Shown here: piece by piece, positions 8,771 to 40,609 of the stretch
Layout of the letters: every line of letters starts with the position of its first letter
Position numbering within the stretch: position 1 is the stretch's first letter
Origin: Bacillota bacterium
Lineage (GTDB): Bacteria; Bacillota; Sulfobacillia; Sulfobacillales; Sulfobacillaceae
NCBI GenBank assembly: GCA_021795465.1
Contig: JAJYPK010000011.1
Span: 1 to 40,616 of the forward strand
DNA length: 40,616 nucleotides
Reading direction: 5' to 3'
Notes under the pieces: generated by a model
Seen by the model: only the letters and a program-made list of their open reading frames with translations
What the model was told of the DNA's origin: nothing
The model's database searches: none
Program-made: the position numbers and the translations under genes

Positions 8771-9910
8771 CTAATCACTGTGAATCACGTCGTGGTACAT
8801 TCGGAGCTCTGGTGCCACAAAATTCCCCAGTCGTGCCGTGTCAACCTCGATTCCAAGACCGGCTTGGTCGGTTAATCTGGCACGTCCCTCGGAGAGGGTC
8901 CACGCCGGTCGGAAAGCCGACCGTATAGCGTTTTCGTTCCTATCGACCTCTACCCACTTCACCTTTGGATACCATGCAGAGGCAACCTGTAGTGCGGCCG
9001 TTTGGGCAATCGGTCCGCTCAGGACATGAAACGCCACCCAATCCGCCGCCTGATTGTCACTGAGAAAGGATTTTGCCGCCTGAATTCCCCCGATTTTGCA
9101 TAAGTCCGGCTGCAAAGCTTTTAATCTTATGGACTGGGATAATGCGCTGTGTTCTAAATACCAATTTTCTCCTGCCGCCATGCGAGAAAATTGTTCCCCT
9201 AATCGGGTGTACCCAGAAAAGTCCCATGCAAAAATCGGTTCTTCAACCCAACCGGCCTGCGCCTCTTCGTAAAAGGCTAATTCTTTTGAGGCCTCTTCAA
9301 CGGTCCACGCCTGATTGGCATCCACCATAGCCACCGTAATCCCGTCCACCCGTTGCACCTGACGGAATCGACGGTGGTCCTCTTCCGGCACAAAACCGAC
9401 TTTAATTTTTGCAGCCACGAAGCCGTCTTGCACGGCTTGTTCCACTTTACTCACGGCCTCGTTGGGTCCGATGCCGCTCGCATAAACCGGTACGGACATC
9501 GCTGGGTTGCCGTCTGGCTCCAGCAAGAGGTTTCTCAATGGGAGTCGTTCTTTTTTCGCCTTCAAATCCCACAACGCCAGTTCGATCGCACTCAGCGCAT
9601 GATAAAATGCGCCAAACGATCCCGATTGAATCACTTCAATGCTAAACCGGTGGCGAATATCCGTGATGGTCGATGGATCCGTTAAGTCATGAAGATGAGA
9701 CTTCAGAAGGTTATGAAGCACCAGAGTACGTTCGGCTAGTGCCCAATGCGGAAAGTTAACCCAGGCTTCCCCCCACCCCTCTACTCCGTCTTCATCCACG
9801 AGTTGCAACAGTAAAGAGGGGCGTGCCTGCATGAATCCGAATGACATCCGAATCGGTTCATGAAGCGGTGTTAGTAAGGGCCATATCTGTGCGCTAGCGA
9901 GTCTGAACAC
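8771..9910 (-). CDS. Enolase-superfamily enzyme, mandelate racemase/muconate lactonizing type
   Basis: An enolase-superfamily barrel enzyme of about 379 residues. Counting from the GTG at 9908-9910, the base K170 lies in AKIKVG, metal ligands are D197 (VDANQ), E223 or E224 (VEEP) and E248 (AGEN), and a D269-H295 pair lies in QPDLCKIGG and AFHVLSGPI. The D-H pair points to the mandelate-racemase subgroup, which contains acid-sugar dehydratases, more than to o-succinylbenzoate synthase, although K272 resembles the latter. An open frame extends to TTG at 9937 with an ATG at 9922, but neither has a ribosome-binding site. The GTG has GGAGG (9916-9920) five bases upstream and gives the usual family N-terminus. 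It is the first gene of the operon running to 4998. Confidence 0.82.
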   Translation of the reverse strand: MFRLASAQIWPLLTPLHEPIRMSFGFMQARPSLLLQLVDEDGVEGWGEAWVNFPHWALAERTLVLHNLLKSHLHDLTDPSTITDIRHRFSIEVIQSGSFGAFYHALSAIELALWDLKAKKERLPLRNLLLEPDGNPAMSVPVYASGIGPNEAVSKVEQAVQDGFVAAKIKVGFVPEEDHRRFRQVQRVDGITVAMVDANQAWTVEEASKELAFYEEAQAGWVEEPIFAWDFSGYTRLGEQFSRMAAGENWYLEHSALSQSIRLKALQPDLCKIGGIQAAKSFLSDNQAADWVAFHVLSGPIAQTAALQVASAWYPKVKWVEVDRNENAIRSAFRPAWTLSEGRARLTDQAGLGIEVDTARLGNFVAPELRMYHDVIHSD

Positions 9911-11681: not shown

Positions 11682-12431
11682 CTACGAGGGTAACACGTGC
11701 TCTTTCCAATCCGGATCATCAATAAAGACCGCATCAACCTCCGCCGCAAGACACCGATCTACGTCGTCGGCATTCTTTAGTCCCCAGACGGCAACCGCCG
11801 ATGTCGGTAGCCGCCAATCCCTTATCTCGAATTGTTCAATCCATCGCACGGGTACGTGCATCACCGGGCTTAAATCTTGGCTGGCTTGGCGGATCAATTC
11901 GGTCGATGGTTCCCCCTCCCACAGCACGGCCAGAGGCATGTTTGGCGCAACCTTCTTAACCCGGTACAGATGTTGTGGTTGAAACGAGGACACCAACGTG
12001 CGTTGGAGCACGCCATAGTCCTCCAGGAGTCGCAACATTCGCGTTAGATTCTCCTCGGTGAGCATTCCTGGGTGCTTTAGTTCGAGATTGATGAACCGAG
12101 ACGTAGGAACCACTTCCAGCACATCTGCCAAGCGGGGGATCTTCCCTTCACCCAGTTGAGGTCGCTTGGGATCGTGGATGGCGATGCGTTGCAATTTGTC
12201 CCGAGACAGTCTGCTAGGAGTTTTATGGATGTGGGCTAGGCGGTCTAAGTCGTCATCGTGGAAGACGAAAGGGATTCCATCCCGAGAAAATTGCACATCA
12301 AATTCGACCCCAAGGAGTCCCATCGCAAAGGCTTTTTGGAACGACGTCACCGTGTTCTCGACGGCTAGCGTCGGAGCTCCCCGGTGTCCCCAAAAAAACA
12401 ACGGCGCGGCTTTTCCCTCATATGAGAACAT
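11682..12431 (-). CDS. Cytoplasmic glycerophosphodiester phosphodiesterase (UgpQ-like)
   Basis: A 249-residue GDPD-family TIM-barrel protein. The signature is clear: H16 and R17 in WGHRGAP, E25-N26 in VENT, E43 and D45 in VEFDVQ, H58-D59 in FHDD, and NLELKHPG near residue 120. These bind Ca2+/Mg2+ and the diester. The enzyme hydrolyses glycerophosphodiesters to sn-glycerol-3-phosphate and an alcohol. It has no signal peptide, so it acts inside the cell on imported substrate, like UgpQ. It is the last gene of the ugp-like group, 21 bases after ugpE, which fits coupled uptake and hydrolysis. The C-terminus is slightly short compared with some homologues, but all catalytic residues are present. 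Confidence 0.92.
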   Translation of the reverse strand: MFSYEGKAAPLFFWGHRGAPTLAVENTVTSFQKAFAMGLLGVEFDVQFSRDGIPFVFHDDDLDRLAHIHKTPSRLSRDKLQRIAIHDPKRPQLGEGKIPRLADVLEVVPTSRFINLELKHPGMLTEENLTRMLRLLEDYGVLQRTLVSSFQPQHLYRVKKVAPNMPLAVLWEGEPSTELIRQASQDLSPVMHVPVRWIEQFEIRDWRLPTSAVAVWGLKNADDVDRCLAAEVDAVFIDDPDWKEHVLPS

Positions 12432-12452: not shown

Positions 12453-13295
12453 TTAATTCATGCCCGCCGTGAGTCCTTTGACGAACCATCGTTGCATCAC
12501 CAGCACCACAATCACGGGTGGCGTCAAAGCTAAAATAGCGGCAGCCATCACTAAATTCCATTCGGGGACAGCGAAACTGGTGGCCGACGATATCATTCCC
12601 TGCATGCCCATAACCACCGTTTGATAGTGTTGGCTAGAGGTTGCCAAGAGTGGCCATAGATACTGATTCCAGCCATAGACAAACTCGATGACTGTGATCG
12701 CCGCCAAATTGGGCTTAGACAAGGGCAACACTATCTTCCAGAGAAATTGAATCGGTCCCACCCCATCCATCCGTGCCGCATCCATTAATTCGACGGGGAT
12801 CGTCATGAAAAACTGCCGAAACAAAAATGTTGCGGTCGCTGAGGCAATAAGGGGAATGATCAGGCCCGTGTACCCGTTTAGCATGCCTAATTGAGCGGTT
12901 ACCTGGTATGTAGGATAAAACCTGACCTCTACCGGCAGTAGCAAGGTCACGAAAATCAGCCAAAAGGCGGCCATTCGACCCGGAAATCTAAAGTAGACCA
13001 CCGCATAGGCGGCGGGGATGGATACGACAAGCTTACCCAGGGTAATACCTAACGCCATCACAAAGCTGTTGAGCAACATCAAGCCAATAGGGGCGCTACT
13101 GGGAAATCCGACAAACAACACATGCATCATGTTCGGGATAAATTGGCCTCCTGGAAGTACTGGAAACGCTCCTAACAACGATCGAGCGCTATGACTGGCC
13201 GCCACAAAGGCCACATACAACGGAATCGCAAAGAGCGAAGCCATCCCTATCAGGAGTGCATGTCGGACAATAACCGTAAGCCGCTCATCCCTCAT
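12453..13295 (-). CDS. ugpE: ABC transporter permease, UgpE/MalG type
   Basis: A 280-residue binding-protein-dependent transport permease with about six membrane helices. The cytoplasmic EAA loop that docks on the ATPase is visible as ELMDAARMDGVGPIQFLWKI (about residues 168-187), and the typical C-terminal RWFVKGLTAGMN is present. It would pair with the UgpA-like permease to move glycerol-3-phosphate or glycerophosphodiesters. The ATG overlaps the ugpA stop by four bases (ATGA at 13292-13295), and its own Shine-Dalgarno is weak, so it probably depends on translational coupling. The ugp assignment rests on neighbours (phosphodiesterase, GlpP, GlpABC). By sequence alone it is a carbohydrate-uptake (CUT1) permease. 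Confidence 0.85.
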   Translation of the reverse strand: MRDERLTVIVRHALLIGMASLFAIPLYVAFVAASHSARSLLGAFPVLPGGQFIPNMMHVLFVGFPSSAPIGLMLLNSFVMALGITLGKLVVSIPAAYAVVYFRFPGRMAAFWLIFVTLLLPVEVRFYPTYQVTAQLGMLNGYTGLIIPLIASATATFLFRQFFMTIPVELMDAARMDGVGPIQFLWKIVLPLSKPNLAAITVIEFVYGWNQYLWPLLATSSQHYQTVVMGMQGMISSATSFAVPEWNLVMAAAILALTPPVIVVLVMQRWFVKGLTAGMN

Positions 13296-14260
13296 TGGTA
13301 ATGCACCCGCCTATTGATCGACCGGAATTGTACCACAGTGAGCGCAGAGACAAAGATGATAAGCAACACGGTTTCTGCCGCCGCAATGGAGGTGTTGGAA
13401 TTTTGGAAGGCATCTTGGTAAATTCGGTAGACCAACGTATCCGTACCATTATGAGGGCCTCCTTGGGTCGCGATATCGATAATCGAAAAGGTGGAAAAGA
13501 AGACATAGATGATATTCATCACCAAGAGGTAAAAAGTGGTCGGTGATAATAGCGGAAAAATCACCTGCCAAAATCGTTTGAAGGCACCGGCTCCATCCAG
13601 TGAAGCCGCCTCCAAGACCTCGCGCGGAATGGCTTGAAGCCCCGCGGTGAAGAAGAGAAAGTTATAAGCCGCCTGTTGCCACACGGTAGCGATGACGATT
13701 AAGGTCATAGCATCGGTCAGGTTGACGGTAAAGTTCCACGGAATATTAAGTGACGCCAATAACTGGGATCCCACCCCGATCTGGGGGTTGAAGACAAAAA
13801 GCCATAATGACCCCGACACCGCTGCGGGTACGGCATAGGTCCACGCAAAGATTGTGCGATACACCGCGCGGCCTTTTAATATTTTGTCGACTTGGCTTGC
13901 CACCAACAATCCTATCCCCATACTTAAGAGTGTTGTCAACAACGAATAAACGATGGTGACTTCGACCGAATACAGATAGGTCCCACTCGTCAATACAAAG
14001 ATGAAATTACTAATTCCCGAAAATCGTGCGCCTAGGCCAAAAGCATTGACCTGATAAAAAGACTCCACCAAGGCTTGCAAAGCGGGCCAGATGAAGAAGA
14101 CGACGACGACGAGAAGCTGCGGCAACAAGAGAAAATAAGGTAGCCACCGATTAGAAAACAGGCCCCGCTGAGAGGTCCGGGTTTTCCGCCGCCCGCGGTC
14201 CGACCCCTCATTACGGCCTGGTTCTTTAATACTGGGAAGCGAAGTTTGCAAGAACCGCAT
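13292..14260 (-). CDS. ugpA: ABC transporter permease, UgpA/MalF type
   Basis: A CUT1-family permease of about 322 residues with six membrane helices and the EAA loop EVLEAASLDGAGAFKRFWQV. The N-terminal 35 residues are highly basic before the first helix. The start is uncertain. The frame is open to an ATG at 14314, which would overlap ugpB by 89 bases, while the ATG at 14258-14260 overlaps it by 35. A TTG at 14249-14251 has AAGGGA nine bases upstream. None has a strong Shine-Dalgarno, so translation is probably coupled to ugpB. It forms the translocation channel with the UgpE-like protein for a glycerol-phosphate-type solute, an assignment based on context. Confidence 0.82.
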   Translation of the reverse strand: MRFLQTSLPSIKEPGRNEGSDRGRRKTRTSQRGLFSNRWLPYFLLLPQLLVVVVFFIWPALQALVESFYQVNAFGLGARFSGISNFIFVLTSGTYLYSVEVTIVYSLLTTLLSMGIGLLVASQVDKILKGRAVYRTIFAWTYAVPAAVSGSLWLFVFNPQIGVGSQLLASLNIPWNFTVNLTDAMTLIVIATVWQQAAYNFLFFTAGLQAIPREVLEAASLDGAGAFKRFWQVIFPLLSPTTFYLLVMNIIYVFFSTFSIIDIATQGGPHNGTDTLVYRIYQDAFQNSNTSIAAAETVLLIIFVSALTVVQFRSINRRVHYQ

Positions 14261-15602
14261 TCCCTTGAGCTTCGGCGGCATTGAGAGCGGTTTGCGCCGA
14301 TTCTTTGCCAGCAAATACAGCAGTTATAGCAGCGTTCTCGATGTTGCGAATTTGTGGGAGGTCTCCCAAACGAATTCCTCGTGTCCAACTATTAGCCGGC
14401 TTATTCGTCAACTCTTTAATGGCCACCTTGGCATCGGGATGTGCTTGGTAATAGCCATTATTGGTTAAATGGGTTACCCCAGCATTTGTCACAGGCACAT
14501 ACCCCGTATGCGTCGCCCAATATGCTTGCACCGAACCCGACATCAAATAGTGCAAAAAGGCGGCGTCTCCAGGATAGGTGGCGGAGGGATTCCCACTCAT
14601 CACCCAAAGTGAATTTCCACCAACCACGGTGTTTTGCGGGGCACCCGGTGCGCCTGCCACATACGGCAAGGCGGCTTCGCCAAATCCAAACTTGGCGCCG
14701 CTGGCGATGGCCGAGTATTCTGCCGAGCTATCAATGTACATGCCCACTTTACCGTCAATGAATAGCGTGGCTGGCGTGCTTTCTCGCCCATCATACGTGA
14801 ACACCCCGCTCTTTTGCCAACTCGCCAACTGCGCGATGTGATTGACAAACGGCGGCGTATTAATGAGGAGTTTCACACCTTTAATCCCGGTGTAGCCATT
14901 ATGATGGGTGGCATAGTGATAGTTGTTCCACACCGCAAATTGCTCGAACTGCGACCAGTCCGGCCATCCAATGGTAAAACCGTTTTTGGCTTTTCCGTGA
15001 CTGACCAAGGCCTGGCCTACGGTGCCCATTTGTTGCCAGGTAGTAGGGACTTTCGCTCCCACGGACGCTAACATGGCTTTGTTGTAATAGAGGACGGGTG
15101 TCGAGCTAGCAAAAGGTAGCGAATCAAGATTGCCGCTTGCCGTTTCGTAGTAGCTTCCGGCTGCCCCGATAAAGTTTGAGGTCGCAAAGGGGATATGATT
15201 TTGTTTCATCAGCTTATACACGGGCACGTAGACACCCGTCGAATCCATCATCGTTGCGGTCCCTACATCAAATACCATCGCGATGTTCGGAGCCCGATGA
15301 GCGCGATAGGCGGCAATGGTTGCGGATAAGACTTCCGGATACGTACCCTTATAGACCGCCTTAACCTCGTATTTCTTTTGCGATGCATTAAATTGGTTGA
15401 CAATGTGCTGAATATCGCTGCCAAGCTGCCCGCTATAGGCAGTCCAAAACGTAATCTGAATCCGACCATGCGATTTGGTTGGGGTCCCGGTATTGCCTGG
15501 GGTGGCTGTCGCGCCACATCCTGCTAAAATGCTTGCGCTTCCTGCCAGGGCTAAGGCACTGGCTCCCACTCGCATCCTTCGACGATGTTTCGTTTTCTCC
15601 AT
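14226..15602 (-). CDS. ugpB: ABC transporter substrate-binding lipoprotein, UgpB-like
   Basis: A 458-residue extracellular solute-binding protein (family 1). A basic N-terminus and hydrophobic stretch end in the lipobox LAGC (cysteine at about residue 29), so it should be a membrane-anchored lipoprotein. The mature part begins with a Thr/Gly-rich linker and shows the usual ITFWTAYSG strand and FPFASSTPVLYYNKA-like hinge region. It is likely to bind glycerol-3-phosphate or a glycerophosphodiester for the two permeases encoded downstream. The ATG at 15600-15602 has AAAGGAG nine bases upstream. The 300 bases before it are unusually rich in repeats. The ligand is inferred from neighbours only, and a sugar cannot be excluded. 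Confidence 0.85.
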   Translation of the reverse strand: MEKTKHRRRMRVGASALALAGSASILAGCGATATPGNTGTPTKSHGRIQITFWTAYSGQLGSDIQHIVNQFNASQKKYEVKAVYKGTYPEVLSATIAAYRAHRAPNIAMVFDVGTATMMDSTGVYVPVYKLMKQNHIPFATSNFIGAAGSYYETASGNLDSLPFASSTPVLYYNKAMLASVGAKVPTTWQQMGTVGQALVSHGKAKNGFTIGWPDWSQFEQFAVWNNYHYATHHNGYTGIKGVKLLINTPPFVNHIAQLASWQKSGVFTYDGRESTPATLFIDGKVGMYIDSSAEYSAIASGAKFGFGEAALPYVAGAPGAPQNTVVGGNSLWVMSGNPSATYPGDAAFLHYLMSGSVQAYWATHTGYVPVTNAGVTHLTNNGYYQAHPDAKVAIKELTNKPANSWTRGIRLGDLPQIRNIENAAITAVFAGKESAQTALNAAEAQGNAVLANFASQY

Positions 15603-15902
15603 GGGTTATCGCTCCTTTATGACAATTCTCCTACCAACAGTGAGATGCAATGGTGAATCGGTTCGTGGCGGATCGTCTAAGGCCGCTAGAAGTCGCCAAT
15701 CGCTACAATACAGCCACTTTATTAAGGATTGACGAATTTTTGCGGATCGTCGCGAGAAGAATTCTCTCGCGACCCATTTTGTCGAAACGACAGAAGACAC
15801 GACAAAATAGCCGACGGCTATCTCCTAGTGTCTCCTGCCTGTCTCCTCAAAATTCGCTGTCAAAGTAGGATTCTCCTGCTATAGGATCGTGATTTAAAAA
15901 AT
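15603..15902 (-). promoter_or_regulatory. Repeat-rich upstream region of ugpB
   Basis: No gene is visible in these 300 bases. In the direction of transcription they contain four AGGAGA copies (plus-strand TCTCCT at 15872, 15842, 15831 and 15821, spaced 30, 11 and 10 bases). A palindrome follows at 15807-15821 (ATAGCCG-A-CGGCTAT). Next is an inverted repeat CGACAAAAT/ATTTTGTCG (15776-15784 and 15800-15808), then a 9-bp stem GTCGCGAGA/TCTCGCGAC (15749-15773). A 10-base direct repeat, GCGGATCGTC, occurs at 15668 and 15742. I could not settle on a promoter: one TTGACA is present upstream of the repeats without a convincing -10. The hairpins lack U-tracts. Confidence 0.5.
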
Positions 15903-16514
15903 TTATTCGTTCCCGCTTTTCGGATTCACGAAATCCGAACTCGACTCCGAATGCTTCGGCCAGAGCTTTTGATTGCTGGTGGATATCCCCCTGACGCCTG
16001 CGGCTTGCATTAATGTCACCTCTTCGGATGTAGAAACCAAGCCGCCGGCTATCACCGGGCAGGGAACACCCTTTACAATCCGACGGGTTGCTTCGGGTAA
16101 GGTGCCGGGCAAGGTTTCCACCGCATCAGGTCGGGTCGAGAGAACCTGCTGAATGCCCGTGGTGATGGATTGACTATCGAGTAAAAAGATCCGTTGAATG
16201 GTCCAAAGATCCGCCCGCTTCGCATGGGTAATCGTGGTAGAGTGGGTGCTAATAATTCCATCGGGGCTCGCATAGTCCGCTAAAAATCGGAGTCCTTCCG
16301 CATCGTTGGCTAGTCCACGCACCATATCCACGTGAATGAAGACGATCCAGCCATGTTTTTGCAAAATCGCAGTCGACTGTGCCACGGCATCCACGGTTCC
16401 GCCTAACAGGAACACCCATTTCGGTGCAATCCCGCGCCCGCGCAGGGTCTGCCAATCGTCAGGATTCCGTAACACAGGAATTACTGGGGGAACCTCACGA
16501 AGTCTTGGTTTCAT
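15903..16514 (-). CDS. glpP: Glycerol-3-phosphate-responsive antiterminator GlpP
   Basis: A 203-residue protein of the GlpP family. Recognisable stretches are IVFIHVDMVRGLANDAEG (about 57-74), DGIISTHSTTITHAKR (about 85-100), TIQRIFLLDSQS, PDAVETLPG and VIAGGLVSTSEEV, ending with GISTSNQKLW. In Bacillus, GlpP with bound glycerol-3-phosphate prevents termination in the leaders of glp transcripts. Here it is encoded inside the operon it probably controls. A terminator sits in the glpA leader at 20353-20386. The ATG overlaps the glpC stop by 20 bases and has GAGGAGGG upstream. The C-terminal 17 residues (SESSSDFVNPKSGNE region) extend beyond the conserved barrel. Confidence 0.93.
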   Translation of the reverse strand: MKPRLREVPPVIPVLRNPDDWQTLRGRGIAPKWVFLLGGTVDAVAQSTAILQKHGWIVFIHVDMVRGLANDAEGLRFLADYASPDGIISTHSTTITHAKRADLWTIQRIFLLDSQSITTGIQQVLSTRPDAVETLPGTLPEATRRIVKGVPCPVIAGGLVSTSEEVTLMQAAGVRGISTSNQKLWPKHSESSSDFVNPKSGNE

Positions 16515-17679
16515 GCGTTTCGCCCTCCTCGAGATATCTTAGGTATCGAGCATATAGCCAATAGGCAGGATGCCTAGCTGGAATGGATGCGGCCTGCTCC
16601 ATGTGGATAGCGCACGTGCCGCTATCTGTAATAATTCCTTTCGCCTCAGAAGAAAGGGCTTGTTCCCGCACCCGAAATGCCAGCTGTTCGGCGGTGCTTT
16701 CATGCTCTGCTTTAAAAGCATAAGATCCTCCGGCCCCACAACAGACCGCGTCGGATGGTTCAGCATCCCAAAACCCCGCCCGTTTCGCCAATTCCCACAA
16801 CTGACCATCACCGCGAGCCACCTTGCCGCGACATGTGGTGTGGGTTATCCATGCCCCGGGTTCCGCCGGCAGGCTCGCCAGTTGTTCCCAAAATAATTCT
16901 GGAGCCTGGTTGGCGATTTCGTCGAACGGGATCACGGGCACGGTAATTTGGAGGCCGTAGAATTCCGGCCATTCGTCCCGGAGTGTCCCGTCACAGGTTG
17001 CATTCAAAGTCACGATGACATCATAGTCACTTTTTTTACGGTTCAAGGTTCTAAACATAGCATGGCCCGTGCTCTTTGCCAATCCCGGATTCCCCGCCGC
17101 GTAGGCGGCGGCCCCACAACATTGAGCCTCACCCGGCACCAACGTCACGCTAAATCCCCAGATGCGCAAAAGCTCTCTCGCTCTCATCACTAACTCTTGA
17201 TCATACCCGCTGCTATAGCAATCTACAAAGAGTCCGATGCGACGCGGGTCGGCCCCTAAGGGCTCTCCCAGGGTTCGCACTTGACCTTTTCGTGGTTTGG
17301 GCAACTGAACCCCGGGAGAAATCTTGCCTAGACGCCGCATCGGTTCCGGAATGGCACCAAGCCAGGCCATCCGAGCTACCCATTGGGGCCGGGCTAAGAT
17401 TTCATCGCGGAGCCAAACACGGAGAGAATGTTTCTTTTCTGCTTTTTGTTCCGCAATCAGGTGCGCAATCGGAACATCAACAGGGCAGACAGATTCACAA
17501 ATCTGGCAGAAGGTACAATCATCAACATGGGGCAAGGGAGCCGTCATCTGCGCCTGATTTTGACGATACCATTCGGGTCCCAAGGCCTTGGGGCCAGGAA
17601 AATCAGGGTTCACAGACATCACCGGACATTGGCTCACGCAAAGCGTACATTTTAAGCAGGCATCAAAAGCGTCCCGCAT
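16495..17679 (-). CDS. glpC: Anaerobic glycerol-3-phosphate dehydrogenase subunit C (iron-sulfur/CCG protein)
   Basis: A 394-residue protein with two N-terminal [4Fe-4S] motifs, C8-C11-C14-C18 and C55-C58-C61-C65, each ending in CP. Two CCG domains follow, with AQCCGAAAYAAG near residue 160 and AVCCGAGGSYAFK near 310. This is the GlpC layout (related to HdrD and lactate-utilisation proteins). It would take electrons from GlpA/GlpB and pass them to the quinone pool at the membrane. The ATG at 17677-17679 overlaps the glpB stop by 17 bases and is preceded by GGGGAGG. It overlaps glpP downstream, confirming one operon. No hydrophobic anchor is evident, so membrane association is probably peripheral. 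Confidence 0.9.
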   Translation of the reverse strand: MRDAFDACLKCTLCVSQCPVMSVNPDFPGPKALGPEWYRQNQAQMTAPLPHVDDCTFCQICESVCPVDVPIAHLIAEQKAEKKHSLRVWLRDEILARPQWVARMAWLGAIPEPMRRLGKISPGVQLPKPRKGQVRTLGEPLGADPRRIGLFVDCYSSGYDQELVMRARELLRIWGFSVTLVPGEAQCCGAAAYAAGNPGLAKSTGHAMFRTLNRKKSDYDVIVTLNATCDGTLRDEWPEFYGLQITVPVIPFDEIANQAPELFWEQLASLPAEPGAWITHTTCRGKVARGDGQLWELAKRAGFWDAEPSDAVCCGAGGSYAFKAEHESTAEQLAFRVREQALSSEAKGIITDSGTCAIHMEQAASIPARHPAYWLYARYLRYLEEGETHETKTS

Positions 17680-18835
17680 GCTCCAGCCTCCCCTCTTGTC
17701 CAGAGACGGCCGAAAATACTGCGTGACTAGTCAGGAGCATCATCGCGCCACCGTCCCCATGGCGATTGGGATCACAGCCCGCAAGCGCACTACCGGCGAC
17801 CCGTGTGGGTTCAAGCCACGACCGATATCCTATTGAGGCTAGGTCCTCGGGTTCTTTCACCACCCCCAGTGATAGGCCCATGAGCCGATCGCGAACCTGA
17901 CCGTCGATGAGGACTTCTAGGCCGCCTCCCAACACACCGCCCGTAGCCAACACCACATGTCCCCCATGAATGCGACGTCCCTCAAGCGCCGCGAAATCGC
18001 CCCCGATTTCTTTGACTCGCCCCTGGACTAATCGTACGCCTTTTCGTCTGAGCCAACGCTCCCAACGACGTTGCAGACGGAGTCCACCCACGGAAGGGGG
18101 CGGTAGAGGTATTTCCGCAACGCCGCGACCCCATAATTCCCCGAGAACCTCAATCAACGATTCGGTGTGGTCAACCCCAAGAATTTGCGGAAAAACTAAC
18201 GGTGCAGATCCTCTTCGAAAGCTCTTCACTTGCTCCCAGAGCCAACGCCGCCCTTCCTCTGTATCTAAATACCATGCCCAATTGAGGCCGTTCCACCCCG
18301 GCCGCCAGGATGGGGACCGTTCTAGCCAGCGAATCTCCGCCGTCATTCCCGTAGTCCACGTGTACACGCGGGCCATGGCCTCGACGGGGAAGTCTACGAG
18401 GTCAGGTACCCCCACCAGGGTAATCGCCCCCGCGTATTCTTGGGTAAATTGCCAGGTGGGGACCAAAAACGCGGGTTTGATGCGGCCGAGCGGCGTTACC
18501 GTTCCTCGATTCTTCGTAGGAAGCAATTTTTCTGTCGGTATCTCCATGGTGAACCATAGATCCCGCAGGTGTTGCCACCAGCTACGCCACATCTGGGCAC
18601 TTACACTACCACCGGGATGGGTATCACCGAATCGGTGCCACCAAGCCCACGGATCCGCTACGGGCTTTCGGTCATTATCATAACTGCGAAAGTCGAATTG
18701 CCCTCCCCACAAGGGTAGCGTGCCGAGACCATCCGCTATCATATCGACTTGGCCTCCCTGCTCCACGACGAGACTACTAACCAGAAGACCAGCCGGTCCC
18801 CGACCTATGACAATCACATCGGAGGCTCTACTCAT
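17663..18835 (-). CDS. glpB: Anaerobic glycerol-3-phosphate dehydrogenase subunit B
   Basis: A flavoprotein subunit of about 390 residues. From the ATG at 18833-18835 it begins with a Rossmann FAD fold, VIVIGRGPAGLL (7-18), in which the usual second glycine is replaced by arginine. A second dinucleotide-type strand, GGHVVLATGGVLGGGLEVL, lies at roughly 280-300, and the C-terminus has AGSALAGCDP. This matches GlpB, which links GlpA to GlpC. The longer open frame to 18901 lacks a ribosome-binding site, while the chosen ATG has GGAGG nine bases upstream and overlaps the glpA stop by eight bases. Sequence identity within GlpB is low, so the name rests partly on the glpA-glpB-glpC gene order. Confidence 0.86.
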   Translation of the reverse strand: MSRASDVIVIGRGPAGLLVSSLVVEQGGQVDMIADGLGTLPLWGGQFDFRSYDNDRKPVADPWAWWHRFGDTHPGGSVSAQMWRSWWQHLRDLWFTMEIPTEKLLPTKNRGTVTPLGRIKPAFLVPTWQFTQEYAGAITLVGVPDLVDFPVEAMARVYTWTTGMTAEIRWLERSPSWRPGWNGLNWAWYLDTEEGRRWLWEQVKSFRRGSAPLVFPQILGVDHTESLIEVLGELWGRGVAEIPLPPPSVGGLRLQRRWERWLRRKGVRLVQGRVKEIGGDFAALEGRRIHGGHVVLATGGVLGGGLEVLIDGQVRDRLMGLSLGVVKEPEDLASIGYRSWLEPTRVAGSALAGCDPNRHGDGGAMMLLTSHAVFSAVSGQEGRLEHAGRF

Positions 18836-20297
18836 CCGACCAGGCCTCCTCCGCCAACGTTTGATGTCGTAACGCCTGACCCAATGCCCATTGCCGCGCA
18901 TTGTCGCCCCATGTGGTGGGCCACCAACCCCGCTCGCGTTCGTGGCGCAGTTGTGAAAGCTCCCTAAGGGCTGTCGATGGGGTCTGTACCGCCATGGCCA
19001 AGAGCGCTCCTCGATGCCCGCACATAGTGCCTTGACAAGGCCCCATGGCGAACCAACTTCGGGTACGCCATTCGGTTAAGGAGGCACATGGCCATCGGGC
19101 CAATTGGCCTAATGAAACTCTTTCGCATTCGCAGATCGTAGGCCCAGGCCTTAAATCCATCTCTACCGCCGTCTGAAGCGGAACTTCAGCCGTTCTACTC
19201 GACCTCTTCACTTTCAAATATGCCGCCACGGCATCTGCCATGTGTTCTGCCATAAGCCGATACGTCGTCCATTTTCCCCCGACCAATGAGAAGGCTCCCA
19301 CTAAGCCTCGTCGCTGCCCATGGTCAATTACCGTGAAGTCTCGCGATATATAGCGAGAGTCACGAATTTCTTGACCATCCTGATACAACGGTCGCACTCC
19401 GGTAAAGGCCCGCAGAACACGCCAACGATCCATATCGGCAAAGAGCCGCTGCCCGAGTTGCATCAAATATTGGGCTTCCTCGCGCGTGGCTCGTGTAGAT
19501 CCGGGGTCCTCTTGCAGAACATCCGTGGTGCCCAAAATCGCCGTTTCACCATGGGGCACAATGATGTCGCCATCTCCTGGCGGTGCGAGTCTATTAATCA
19601 CATAAGGCACCCTCCGATTAGCAAAGATAAGCATGGTTCCGCGTGAGAGTTGCATGGCGATGCCGTCATGAAACAGACGGGCCACCTCACCTGCATAAGG
19701 TCCCGCTGCATTCACCACCGCATCACAGGCGATGACACGTGGGCCATCCTTATCCATCACTTCCACTCCCACCACTCGACCATTTTCATGGCGAATATCC
19801 GTTACAGTGGTGTGAGTCAAAATTTCGCCACCTAAATTCTCAATGTTTAATCGTAAAAGGTGTAAGAGCGTAAATCCTTCGAGCACCCCATCCGGAACCG
19901 AAAATCCTCGTCGCACCCATGGCCCCAGGTTCTCTACCGTTTCCCTGATTTGGCCGACTGCCACTTCTTTGACCGGAAGTCCAATCGCTTCCGCACCTTT
20001 GACCCAGTCCTGCACATAGGCATCCCCTTCATCATCCACCGACAGGAAGTATCCTCCCGTCGCTTTAATCGCTGCACCAGCCACTCGCTTTAGGATCCGA
20101 TTTTCTTCCCAGCATTCCCGAGCAGCCTGAACGTCGGACACGACGTAACGACCTCCACTATGTAAGAGCCCATGGAATCTTCCCGACGTTCCGGACCCGA
20201 TATCGCCCATCTCCACAACCATAACCGGGATCGACCGGAGTAAGAGGTCCCATGCCAATCCAAGTCCCGAGGCACCACCGCCAATAACAATGACCAT
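18828..20297 (-). CDS. glpA: Anaerobic glycerol-3-phosphate dehydrogenase subunit A (FAD, [2Fe-2S]-type C-terminus)
   Basis: A 489-residue catalytic subunit that oxidises sn-glycerol-3-phosphate to dihydroxyacetone phosphate. FAD motif IGGGASGLGLAWDLL starts at residue 5. The GTSGRFHGLLHSGGRYV stretch is the glycerol-3-phosphate oxidase signature, and VNAAGPYAGEVARL and GGKWTTYRLMAEHMAD mark the later parts of the fold. A BFD-type iron-sulfur domain follows, with C389-x-C391 and C421-x4-C426. The open frame extends to 20426, but those codons run through a terminator hairpin. The ATG at 20295-20297 is correct because GGAGGAG precedes it and the protein then begins at the FAD motif. It is the first gene of glpA-glpB-glpC-glpP. 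Confidence 0.93.
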   Translation of the reverse strand: MVIVIGGGASGLGLAWDLLLRSIPVMVVEMGDIGSGTSGRFHGLLHSGGRYVVSDVQAARECWEENRILKRVAGAAIKATGGYFLSVDDEGDAYVQDWVKGAEAIGLPVKEVAVGQIRETVENLGPWVRRGFSVPDGVLEGFTLLHLLRLNIENLGGEILTHTTVTDIRHENGRVVGVEVMDKDGPRVIACDAVVNAAGPYAGEVARLFHDGIAMQLSRGTMLIFANRRVPYVINRLAPPGDGDIIVPHGETAILGTTDVLQEDPGSTRATREEAQYLMQLGQRLFADMDRWRVLRAFTGVRPLYQDGQEIRDSRYISRDFTVIDHGQRRGLVGAFSLVGGKWTTYRLMAEHMADAVAAYLKVKRSSRTAEVPLQTAVEMDLRPGPTICECERVSLGQLARWPCASLTEWRTRSWFAMGPCQGTMCGHRGALLAMAVQTPSTALRELSQLRHERERGWWPTTWGDNARQWALGQALRHQTLAEEAWSDE

Positions 20298-20352
20298 GTA
20301 AATCTCCTCCAGTACGGCGAGACACGCATTCTTAAAGGTGAAATCGACCAAC

Positions 20353-20386
20353 AAAAAACCCCGCAACGCACTCGCGTTGCCGGGTT
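20353..20386 (-). terminator. Intrinsic terminator inside the glpA leader (candidate GlpP-controlled attenuator)
   Basis: In the minus-strand transcript AACCCGGCAACGC and GCGTTGCGGGGTT pair around a GAGT loop with a single G-G mismatch, followed by six T residues (20353-20358). It lies between the glpA promoter (start site near 20431) and the glpA start codon at 20297, so it can only act on the operon's own transcript. In Bacillus glp leaders, an equivalent terminator is overridden by GlpP. Here glpP is the fourth gene of the same operon. The structure is seen directly; the control mechanism is inferred. Confidence 0.85.
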
Positions 20387-20437
20387 TCTCCTCGTCTCTC
20401 CCAGCTACTCTATCGCCCACATTCAATTGTTAGCTAT

Positions 20438-20466
20438 ATTATGACCGATTATACGATGGATGGCAA
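20438..20466 (-). promoter_or_regulatory. glpA promoter
   Basis: On the minus strand TTGCCA (20461-20466) and CATAAT (20438-20443) are separated by exactly 17 bases. Each box matches the sigma-A consensus at five of six positions. Transcription would start near 20431, giving a leader of about 134 bases that contains the terminator at 20353-20386. Confidence 0.7.
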
Positions 20467-38383: not shown

Positions 38384-40609
38384 TCAATGCACAAATGCCC
38401 ACCGTAGTGCCTGAGATGCGTTAGAGACAGGGACCCAATGAATCTTGCCAAAGGTTTCGACAAAGGTTTCCTCCAACAGCTCGATGGGACTTCCTTCTGG
38501 CAGTACGATAGTCTGGCGCCCTCGATTCAAAGCCGCCATCACCAATGCGACGATTTCCGCTGGCGCAATGACATCCCCGGCAAGCGTCAATCCTCCAATC
38601 ACGGCTAATGAGGATGCCAGAGGCTTTCGCAACCAGGTTGAGACCACCGCCATCACCAGTCCCAGTTCACCTCGCCCCTTAAGGTCACCAGGACCGCCGG
38701 TCCATTGCACACCTAACCCCTCCCAGCGTACCGCATTATCGAGGCCCAACCGATGCCCGTGAGAACTTAAAAAGAACTCGGCCACACGAAAGACCGCCTC
38801 CCCACCGCGCAAGCCATCGTCTGAAAACACCCGTGGTCTATGGGGACTTCTCTCGGCCATCACGACCTGCACTATAGCGACTTCGGTGCTCACCGTTCCA
38901 CTTGCCGGGTCAACCTCTGCCACCACGGTCGTGCATTCCCCTGGCCGCGGTGCCTGATTCAATTGCCGGTCGATGGGGGTTTCAATGCGTGTGCGCCCAT
39001 CGCTTCGTACCGATATTCCCTGATACGCTACGGGATACGGGGCGAACTCGCCCGGTTCCATCTTGATGAGTTGTTCATGGACACGCTGTCGTGACTCGGC
39101 CGCCATCCCCAAAAGGTCTTCAGCAACCGTGGTATCAATCACGCCATCGGGAAATACGAGTTTGAACAAAGCCCGACCGAGTCGGTCCAAAGCCGTGACG
39201 TCGCGTCGAGTCAGGTTGGAGGGTAGCGGCCAACGTTTTTGGATCCCCTCCCATACATCGTCATAGGGCCAATCACGGAGAGCCAACAACACTTCGCCGA
39301 AGTAATCAGACGCCAAGGATTGCGCTGGTTCGAGAGACTCGGGCGTCAATTTAGGAAATTCCCAGCCCGGGATGAATCCGTGTAAACGATCCAACACCGC
39401 AGTCTCTTGCAGTCCTCGTGGCAAGACCTCAAAGAGATGCCGATAGCGGGCCGAGGGGTGCCGTCCTTCAACCTCTAAGTTACCAAGAAAAACCAGCGAG
39501 GTGTCCGCGCCGTAGGAGGCGCGACCCCGAGAAAATTGCCCACTCTCCATATAGTCTTTTAAGAGGCTTAACGTGGCCGGGTTATGGCTAAACTGCACCC
39601 GTGAAACCTCGTCGAAAATGATCACCCGACGGCTTTGAATAAGGCCGGGGCGTCCCGTCGTTAGGTTCACAAAGAGGTTGGCGGGCGTCGATCCACCCCC
39701 AGCCACAGTAAATGCATACGGAGATAGATTGCGGAGTAAGTGTGTCTTACCGGTATTCTTTGGCCCTAATTCAAGAAGATTGACGTTCCTTTCGACCAAA
39801 GGGATTAATCGCAGAAGGTATAATCGAGTCAGGCGCTTTCCGTCTGGTCGATCCCGTATCCATTCCGGATTATATCCAGCGGCAGCCAGCAATATATCGA
39901 TCCATTCCTCGGTGGAAAAGTGTTGACGAGCCTTGACAAAACGTTCGACATCGACTGACGCCTGGTAAGGTTCAAACATCGTAATAATGGGACGATGCTG
40001 AGAAAACCACGCCGCACCATCGTCCTCCGAAAGCATCTCTTCATCTTCGTCTTCATCTATCGAGATGGGTACCGCGAGCGCTTCGCCGGGAGTGAGGACC
40101 GCCTGGGACAATCGGCTCACCCTAACCCGGCCCCAAAGGCCACCACTAAGCAAATCTGGGAACTCGTTCAGAATGGATGCTTGCACGGTAAAGGCGTGCT
40201 GAAATGCGACGAGATTTCCCGTGGTCTCTCCCGACTCGATATCGATCGAAACTTCGAGATAATCCAATAGGTCCACGGCACCATCATTCACCAGTTTATA
40301 TTTTAATATCTGCCGATTGCGCGTCGTAGGGAAGTGAGCCTCCACGATCCGACTGGCATCAGCCATGCCATAGAGGCCGAGGAGATATTCCGATAAGAAG
40401 TCCGGCAGTTGACCGCCGAGGCGGGCATGAGGGCTCGTCCGTCGATCTCGCATGACTTGGCCAAAGAGCCGACGCGCCTTGTCTTCTACACTGCCCCCCG
40501 AGCCTAACATCGACTCCACGATCTCTCCTCCGTTATTCAAAAAGTGGGCGACGCGCGATGAGTTCCGCTTCGTCGGTGTCCCGATCGACCTCTTCTGAGA
40601 GGTCGACAT
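38384..40609 (-). CDS. brxL: BrxL-type AAA+ protein with Lon-like C-terminal domain (BREX phage defence); 5' end may lie outside the window
   Basis: A 741-residue protein counted from the ATG at 40607-40609. The N-terminal part has FLSEYLLGLYG near residue 71, the BrxL pattern. An acidic linker covers 185-197. The AAA+ core shows AAAGYNPEW, LIPLVERNVNLLELGPKNTGKTHLL (Walker A 282-289), NLFVNLTTGRPGLI, FDEV (Walker B, 332-335) and KDYMESGQFSRG. The last 130 residues resemble the Lon protease domain, but the catalytic Ser and Lys positions (KGRGELG 644-650; IAPAEI 681-686) seem substituted. BrxL is often the last gene of BREX loci, so the remaining genes may lie to the right. No ribosome-binding site is visible before this ATG, and the frame is open to the edge, so the true start may be upstream. 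Confidence 0.88.
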   Translation of the reverse strand: MSTSQKRSIGTPTKRNSSRVAHFLNNGGEIVESMLGSGGSVEDKARRLFGQVMRDRRTSPHARLGGQLPDFLSEYLLGLYGMADASRIVEAHFPTTRNRQILKYKLVNDGAVDLLDYLEVSIDIESGETTGNLVAFQHAFTVQASILNEFPDLLSGGLWGRVRVSRLSQAVLTPGEALAVPISIDEDEDEEMLSEDDGAAWFSQHRPIITMFEPYQASVDVERFVKARQHFSTEEWIDILLAAAGYNPEWIRDRPDGKRLTRLYLLRLIPLVERNVNLLELGPKNTGKTHLLRNLSPYAFTVAGGGSTPANLFVNLTTGRPGLIQSRRVIIFDEVSRVQFSHNPATLSLLKDYMESGQFSRGRASYGADTSLVFLGNLEVEGRHPSARYRHLFEVLPRGLQETAVLDRLHGFIPGWEFPKLTPESLEPAQSLASDYFGEVLLALRDWPYDDVWEGIQKRWPLPSNLTRRDVTALDRLGRALFKLVFPDGVIDTTVAEDLLGMAAESRQRVHEQLIKMEPGEFAPYPVAYQGISVRSDGRTRIETPIDRQLNQAPRPGECTTVVAEVDPASGTVSTEVAIVQVVMAERSPHRPRVFSDDGLRGGEAVFRVAEFFLSSHGHRLGLDNAVRWEGLGVQWTGGPGDLKGRGELGLVMAVVSTWLRKPLASSLAVIGGLTLAGDVIAPAEIVALVMAALNRGRQTIVLPEGSPIELLEETFVETFGKIHWVPVSNASQALRWAFVH

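Follow-up and report, generated by a model that had tools for sequence, protein, structure and literature searches.

A divergent candidate GlpP antitermination leader between glpP and ugpB

The 300 nt between a gene for the antiterminator GlpP and a gene for a glycerol-3-phosphate binding protein (ugpB) contain four copies of the hexamer AGGAGA followed by a stack of inverted repeats, which raises the question of what this arrangement controls. A sequence-only reading of the 40,616-nt stretch of DNA analyzed here (the window) attributed it to a PhoB/PhoP-type regulator bound to one face of the DNA. Rather than acting as a DNA switch, the AGGAGA blocks probably belong to an RNA hairpin that GlpP grips, and the DNA-phasing observation is recast here as a testable RNA switch. 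GlpP control is already known: PMC6225680 describes GlpP as preventing termination at the glpFK terminator, and PMC9604022 describes the same for the leader terminators of PglpD, PglpT and PglpFK. Its extension to ugp genes through an array of three blocks would be new.

Results

A glycerol-3-phosphate gene row on the minus strand

Profile matches identify a row of genes, all on the minus strand, in the order glpA, glpB, glpC, glpP, the 300-nt gap, ugpB, ugpA, ugpE and a glycerophosphodiesterase gene. The names of glpC, glpB and glpA (16495–20426) are best NCBIfam matches, each below its cut-off. glpP (15903–16514) encodes the glycerol-3-phosphate responsive antiterminator (PF04309, E 9.5e-52; related PDB structures 3kts and 1vkf). 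Past the gap are ugpB (14226–15602; NF008211, E 2.8e-114, 382 bits, below the cut-off of 411), the permease genes ugpA (13292–14314; NF007852, E 1.2e-88, 298 bits, below the cut-off of 335) and ugpE (12453–13295; NF008210, E 1.8e-101, the only one of the six NCBIfam names that passes its cut-off), and the glycerophosphodiester phosphodiesterase gene (GDPD, 11682–12431; Pfam PF03009, E 9e-35). A gene for a BrxL-like Lon protease ATPase (BREX-type) occupies the window edge (38384–40609, minus strand).

The glpA leader (20360–20412, minus strand) carries a canonical GlpP element as defined below, GAGA-CGA-GGAGA enclosed by the stem GCTGGG/CCCGGC, together with an intrinsic terminator, and a promoter-like site lies at 20466–20438. 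The called start of the glpA reading frame (20426) is probably too early, with the true start past the terminator at 20363. No promoter-like site was found near the repeats of the ugpB leader, and its RNA therefore likely arises by read-through from upstream.

AGGAGA blocks and inverted repeats in the glpP-ugpB gap

TCTCCT (AGGAGA on the minus strand) starts at plus-strand positions 15821, 15831, 15842 and 15872, which confirms the four copies and the spacings of 10, 11 and 30 bases that the sequence-only reading had reported. The repeats are on the sense strand of the gene row. Copy 1 (15872–15877), 26 nt past the glpP stop, is outlying and probably outside the core element. The triplet, 56 nt past the stop, consists of copy 2 (15842–15847) as its first block and of copies 3 (15831–15836) and 4 (15821–15826), which supply the first and second GGAGA of the proposed GlpP loop. 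The two GAGA-GGAGA pairs of the leader lie 58 and 69 nt past the stop.

Two TCTCCT pairs with 3–6 nt between the copies occur in the window versus 0.03 expected, and 0 of 100 shuffles gave two. Across the 3.58-Mb genome the AGGAGA pair occurs at three places, and it is not enriched on its own because the backwards control also gives three; the overlap of two pairs that makes the triplet occurs at this site only. The looser GGAGA pair occurs at 45 places versus 31 backwards; three of the 45 fall in the glp-ugp gene row, and overlapping pairs are found only at the ugpB leader.

All three inverted repeats described earlier upstream of ugpB are present. They are GTCGCGAGA/TCTCGCGAC (15749–15773, arms 15749–15757 and 15765–15773) and ATTTTGTCG/CGACAAAAT (15776–15808, arms 15776–15784 and 15800–15808), to neither of which a strand is assigned, and a small hairpin at 15807–15821 that sits within an imperfect 23-nt inverted repeat (15791–15837). 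The repeat at 15749–15773 is without a U-tract on the sense strand and is terminator-like on the plus strand. Taken as 15745–15777, an inverted repeat here has perfect 9-nt arms flanking GAATTC (−16.7 kcal/mol, sense strand).

A mobile or repeated element was rejected, as the 300-nt region has no other match at E < 0.05 in its own genome and 60 relatives. Triple AGGAG clusters with this spacing were not seen in the other GlpP/UgpB loci scanned. A leader peptide was also rejected: inspection by eye revealed no start codon at a suitable distance past the triplet copies.

A recurrent GGAGA element near GlpP genes

A recurrent RNA element occurs near GlpP genes and consists of a covarying stem around a GGAGA-N3/4-GGAGA loop, with the 3′ strand of the stem shared with a terminator. 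Hairpins with a GAGA-N-GGAGA loop and a closing stem of at least 4 bp were counted in 1.26 Mb of loci around GlpP and UgpB genes, some of them overlapping, plus the window. Linkers of 1 to 7 nt gave 2, 1, 37, 8, 2, 2 and 4 hairpins, and the reversed-sequence control gave 2, 0, 0, 2, 0, 2 and 2. Covariation was measured in 40 linker-3 sites picked by eye, with the window sites excluded. The 6-bp stem covaries with a score of 0.581 versus 0.238 for shuffled sites, 62 versus 29 double-changed cells and 0 of 500 shuffles as high, figures that are inflated because a stem-selected list supplied 32 of the 40 sites. All versions with the stem slid were lower on the score and on double-changed cells. 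Pairs with a double change and further pair types were also counted, and neither measure of covariation rose above the shuffles.

Among 87 GlpP genes, a fetched subset of those found that includes the window, 24 (window included) have an element in sense orientation no more than 400 nt 3′ of glpP, none has an antisense one, and 63 are without an element 3′. The linkers of the other 23 positive genes are 3 nt (19 genes) or 4 nt (4 genes). All 14 named loci of Bacillus, Metabacillus and Peribacillus have the element 63–77 nt past the glpP stop and a second copy 2.54–2.59 kb past it; they come from closely related species, and the contig from Peribacillus is that of G325, also among the 87. In locus L209 the two copies flank glpF and glpK. 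Elements in genomes G004 and G028 stand between glpP and genes for an MIP protein and an FGGY kinase (glpF-glpK-like). The element is thus usually placed with glpP on one side and a transport unit on the other, as exemplified by these two genomes and by G174, where the unit is ugpB-A-E-like. GlpP matches are also present in 39 plasmid records.

In the window, the glpA leader has similar blocks immediately ahead of a terminator, as do the glpA/glpD-like leaders of G019 and G004; in the corresponding leader of G028 the second of these blocks is changed. A strict joint search for antiterminator and terminator returned three candidates and did not recover the glpA leader of the window itself. An element model run against the whole genome gave 17 matches (E 0.007 to 9.3), and no terminator context was seen in those inspected by eye. 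Rfam at the gathering score had no match in the window, and in six element-bearing loci it had two matches only (a T-box and a tRNA), both away from the element.

By eye, the GGAGA blocks themselves at 9359 of L055 and 10012 of L042 appear to form the left arm of a terminator before a glpF-like gene, which would constitute a second architecture of GlpP leaders.

The ugpB leader as a probable variant of the canonical element

The ugpB leader agrees with the canonical element in position, orientation and loop blocks. glpP adjoins it directly upstream, and paired GGAGA blocks on the sense strand precede ugpB, a glycerol-3-phosphate gene. The leader deviates in several respects: its blocks number three, its stem is bulged, its U-tract is poor, its model score is insignificant and its linkers, at 5 and 6 nt, fall outside the 3–4 nt derived in the present analysis. 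It is filed as a variant and not as a typical member because it departs from the element as defined here on two of the defining features. In the window the element model gave the ugpB leader 9 bits (E 2), which is insignificant, and the glpA leader 16 bits (E 0.016). The model is weak by itself because even the glpA leader reaches only E 1.4 genome-wide. With 150 of 649 candidates scored and E values up to 10 admitted, the genome search did not list the ugpB-leader site.

Predicted folds of the ugpB leader

Beyond the three inverted repeats noted earlier, the transcribed strand from 15786 to 15843 is predicted to fold as one long hairpin (minus strand). Folding of a 63-nt segment gave −32.4 kcal/mol (z −6.1), and 0 of 200 shuffles were as good. 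AGGAGA copies 3 and 4 are within the 5′ arm, and copy 3 (CAGGAGACAC) pairs with the downstream GTGTCTTCTG.

Two smaller predicted hairpins compete within this segment. The proposed antiterminator hairpin, GAC(A)GGC-AGGAGACACTAGGAGATA-GCCGTC (15813–15843, minus strand), has 6 bp and one bulged A (−5.7 kcal/mol) and presents the loop sequence GGAGA-CACTA-GGAGA. The terminator-like hairpin, ATAGCC-GTC-GGCTAT (15801–15821, minus strand; −6.0 kcal/mol), is followed by TTTGTC, a weak U-tract, and a terminator scan reported no minus-strand site in the glpP-ugpB gap. The GAC(A)GGC/GCCGTC stem overlaps the ATAGCC arm, which makes the two predicted hairpins mutually exclusive. The antiterminator stem is absent from the minimum-energy folds of all nine nascent lengths. 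Its flank duplex (−8.7) beats chance only moderately: shuffling the flanks equaled it in 550 of 5000 cases, and of the 33 background GGAGA pairs compared, out of 45 places in the genome, 3 have an equally strong stem. The upstream GGAGA pair of the leader is without a stem (−0.3).

Other loci with glpP and ugpB

In G174 (locus L249), a canonical element separates glpP from a ugpB-A-E-like cluster, none of whose matches reaches its NCBIfam cut-off. This arrangement resembles the window in placing the element between glpP and ugpB-type genes, and differs in its linker of 3 nt, its stronger stem (−11.5 versus −8.7) and a HAD-type hydrolase gene after the ugp-like cluster in place of GDPD. No element was found between glpP and ugpB in G019, which has the closest ugpB (69% identical) and a glpK-like FGGY kinase gene between the two. 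Overall, 28 of 30 ugpB-type loci are without an element. In five further genomes (L124 and L250–L253) a ugpB-family gene lies no more than 6 kb from glpP; no element intervenes in any of them, and the two genes are adjacent only in G253.

Discussion

From these comparisons of sequence it appears fairly likely that the glpP-ugpB gap serves ugpBAE as a divergent GlpP antitermination leader. We infer GlpP binding at the ugpB leader, termination and ligand dependence. Without glycerol-3-phosphate, the leader RNA would form the terminator-like hairpin, which would extend into the long hairpin, mask one GGAGA block (copy 3) and end most transcription after glpP. With glycerol-3-phosphate, GlpP would contact the GGAGA blocks and stabilize the overlapping antiterminator stem, and with that stem held the polymerase would reach ugpB. 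A more ambitious version is doubtful: the three-block array with its longer linkers may be an expanded GlpP recognition element that seats several GlpP subunits on one RNA, as in TRAP, and through which a glycerol-3-phosphate ABC transporter was recruited into the GlpP regulon.

The great stability of the long hairpin (z −6.1) would also fit an unlikely alternative, a constitutive attenuator that works without GlpP. The hairpin would lower ugp expression relative to glpABCP, or stabilize a processed glpP mRNA, and the purine blocks would be a mere hairpin arm. The non-canonical linkers and the insignificant model score fit this explanation, but it leaves unexplained both the three AGGAGA blocks, whose overlapping pairs recur nowhere else in the genome, and the position that they have in common with GlpP elements. 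The excess of two overlapping pairs over the 0.03 expected in the window weighs against the blocks being an accident of purine-rich sequence or a decaying, inactive remnant of a former glpP-glpFK leader. The lack of a similar region in 60 relatives would suit either, and MIP (glpF-like) and FGGY kinase genes come after the element in G004 and G028, so that ugp genes may have replaced glpFK-like genes here. The long hairpin is nevertheless intact, and chance or decay is a very unlikely account.

Least probable is a DNA-binding regulator, of Pho type or other, on one face of helically phased direct repeats. The spacings of 10, 11 and 30 are indeed near whole helical turns. Pho boxes are tandem TTAACA-like or CTGTCAT-like repeats, and a search of 15603–15902 for Bacillus-type and E. 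coli-type boxes, allowing up to three mismatches to the consensus, gave no match. A promoter-like site was not found near the repeats, no such cluster was seen in the other loci scanned, and the blocks, which lie inside a sense-strand RNA hairpin after an antiterminator gene, are better matched by the RNA element of the neighboring regulator. The earlier expectation of a regulatory element with repeated protein-contact sites is likely to hold; that a PhoB/PhoP-type regulator binds one face of the DNA is unsupported.

The proposed GlpP leader shares with the glpFK and glpD leaders of Bacillus an adjoining regulator of the same family, sense GGAGA blocks, predicted competing hairpins and a glycerol-phosphate gene next in line, and its place 3′ of glpP is that of the glpF leader. 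It differs in preceding a glycerol-3-phosphate ABC transporter and not glpFK, in the number of its blocks (three and not two) and the length of their linkers (5 and 6 nt and not 3–4 nt), and in its poorer U-tract. In the TRAP leader RNA, repeated GAG/UAG triplets are the recognition elements and TRAP binding leads to termination. By analogy, the ugpB leader would likewise offer repeated short purine-rich blocks to a metabolite-sensing protein, although TRAP belongs to a different protein family and, unlike GlpP, causes termination when bound.

The comparison yields an explicit consensus for probable GlpP targets: a stem, GGAGA, 3–4 nt, GGAGA, and a closing stem strand common to a terminator. 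This consensus was not found in the open literature searched; key GlpP papers lie outside that search, and it may already be published.

A second, divergent GlpP paralogue is encoded at 9798–10394 of L039 (G000:C136), and the 400 nt on its 3′ side contain no GGAGA element. Its neighborhood contains DBI_PRT/nitroreductase, periplasmic-binding and FecCD-type transport genes, and weak GlpP paralogues like it occur in G021, G025, G011 and G031.
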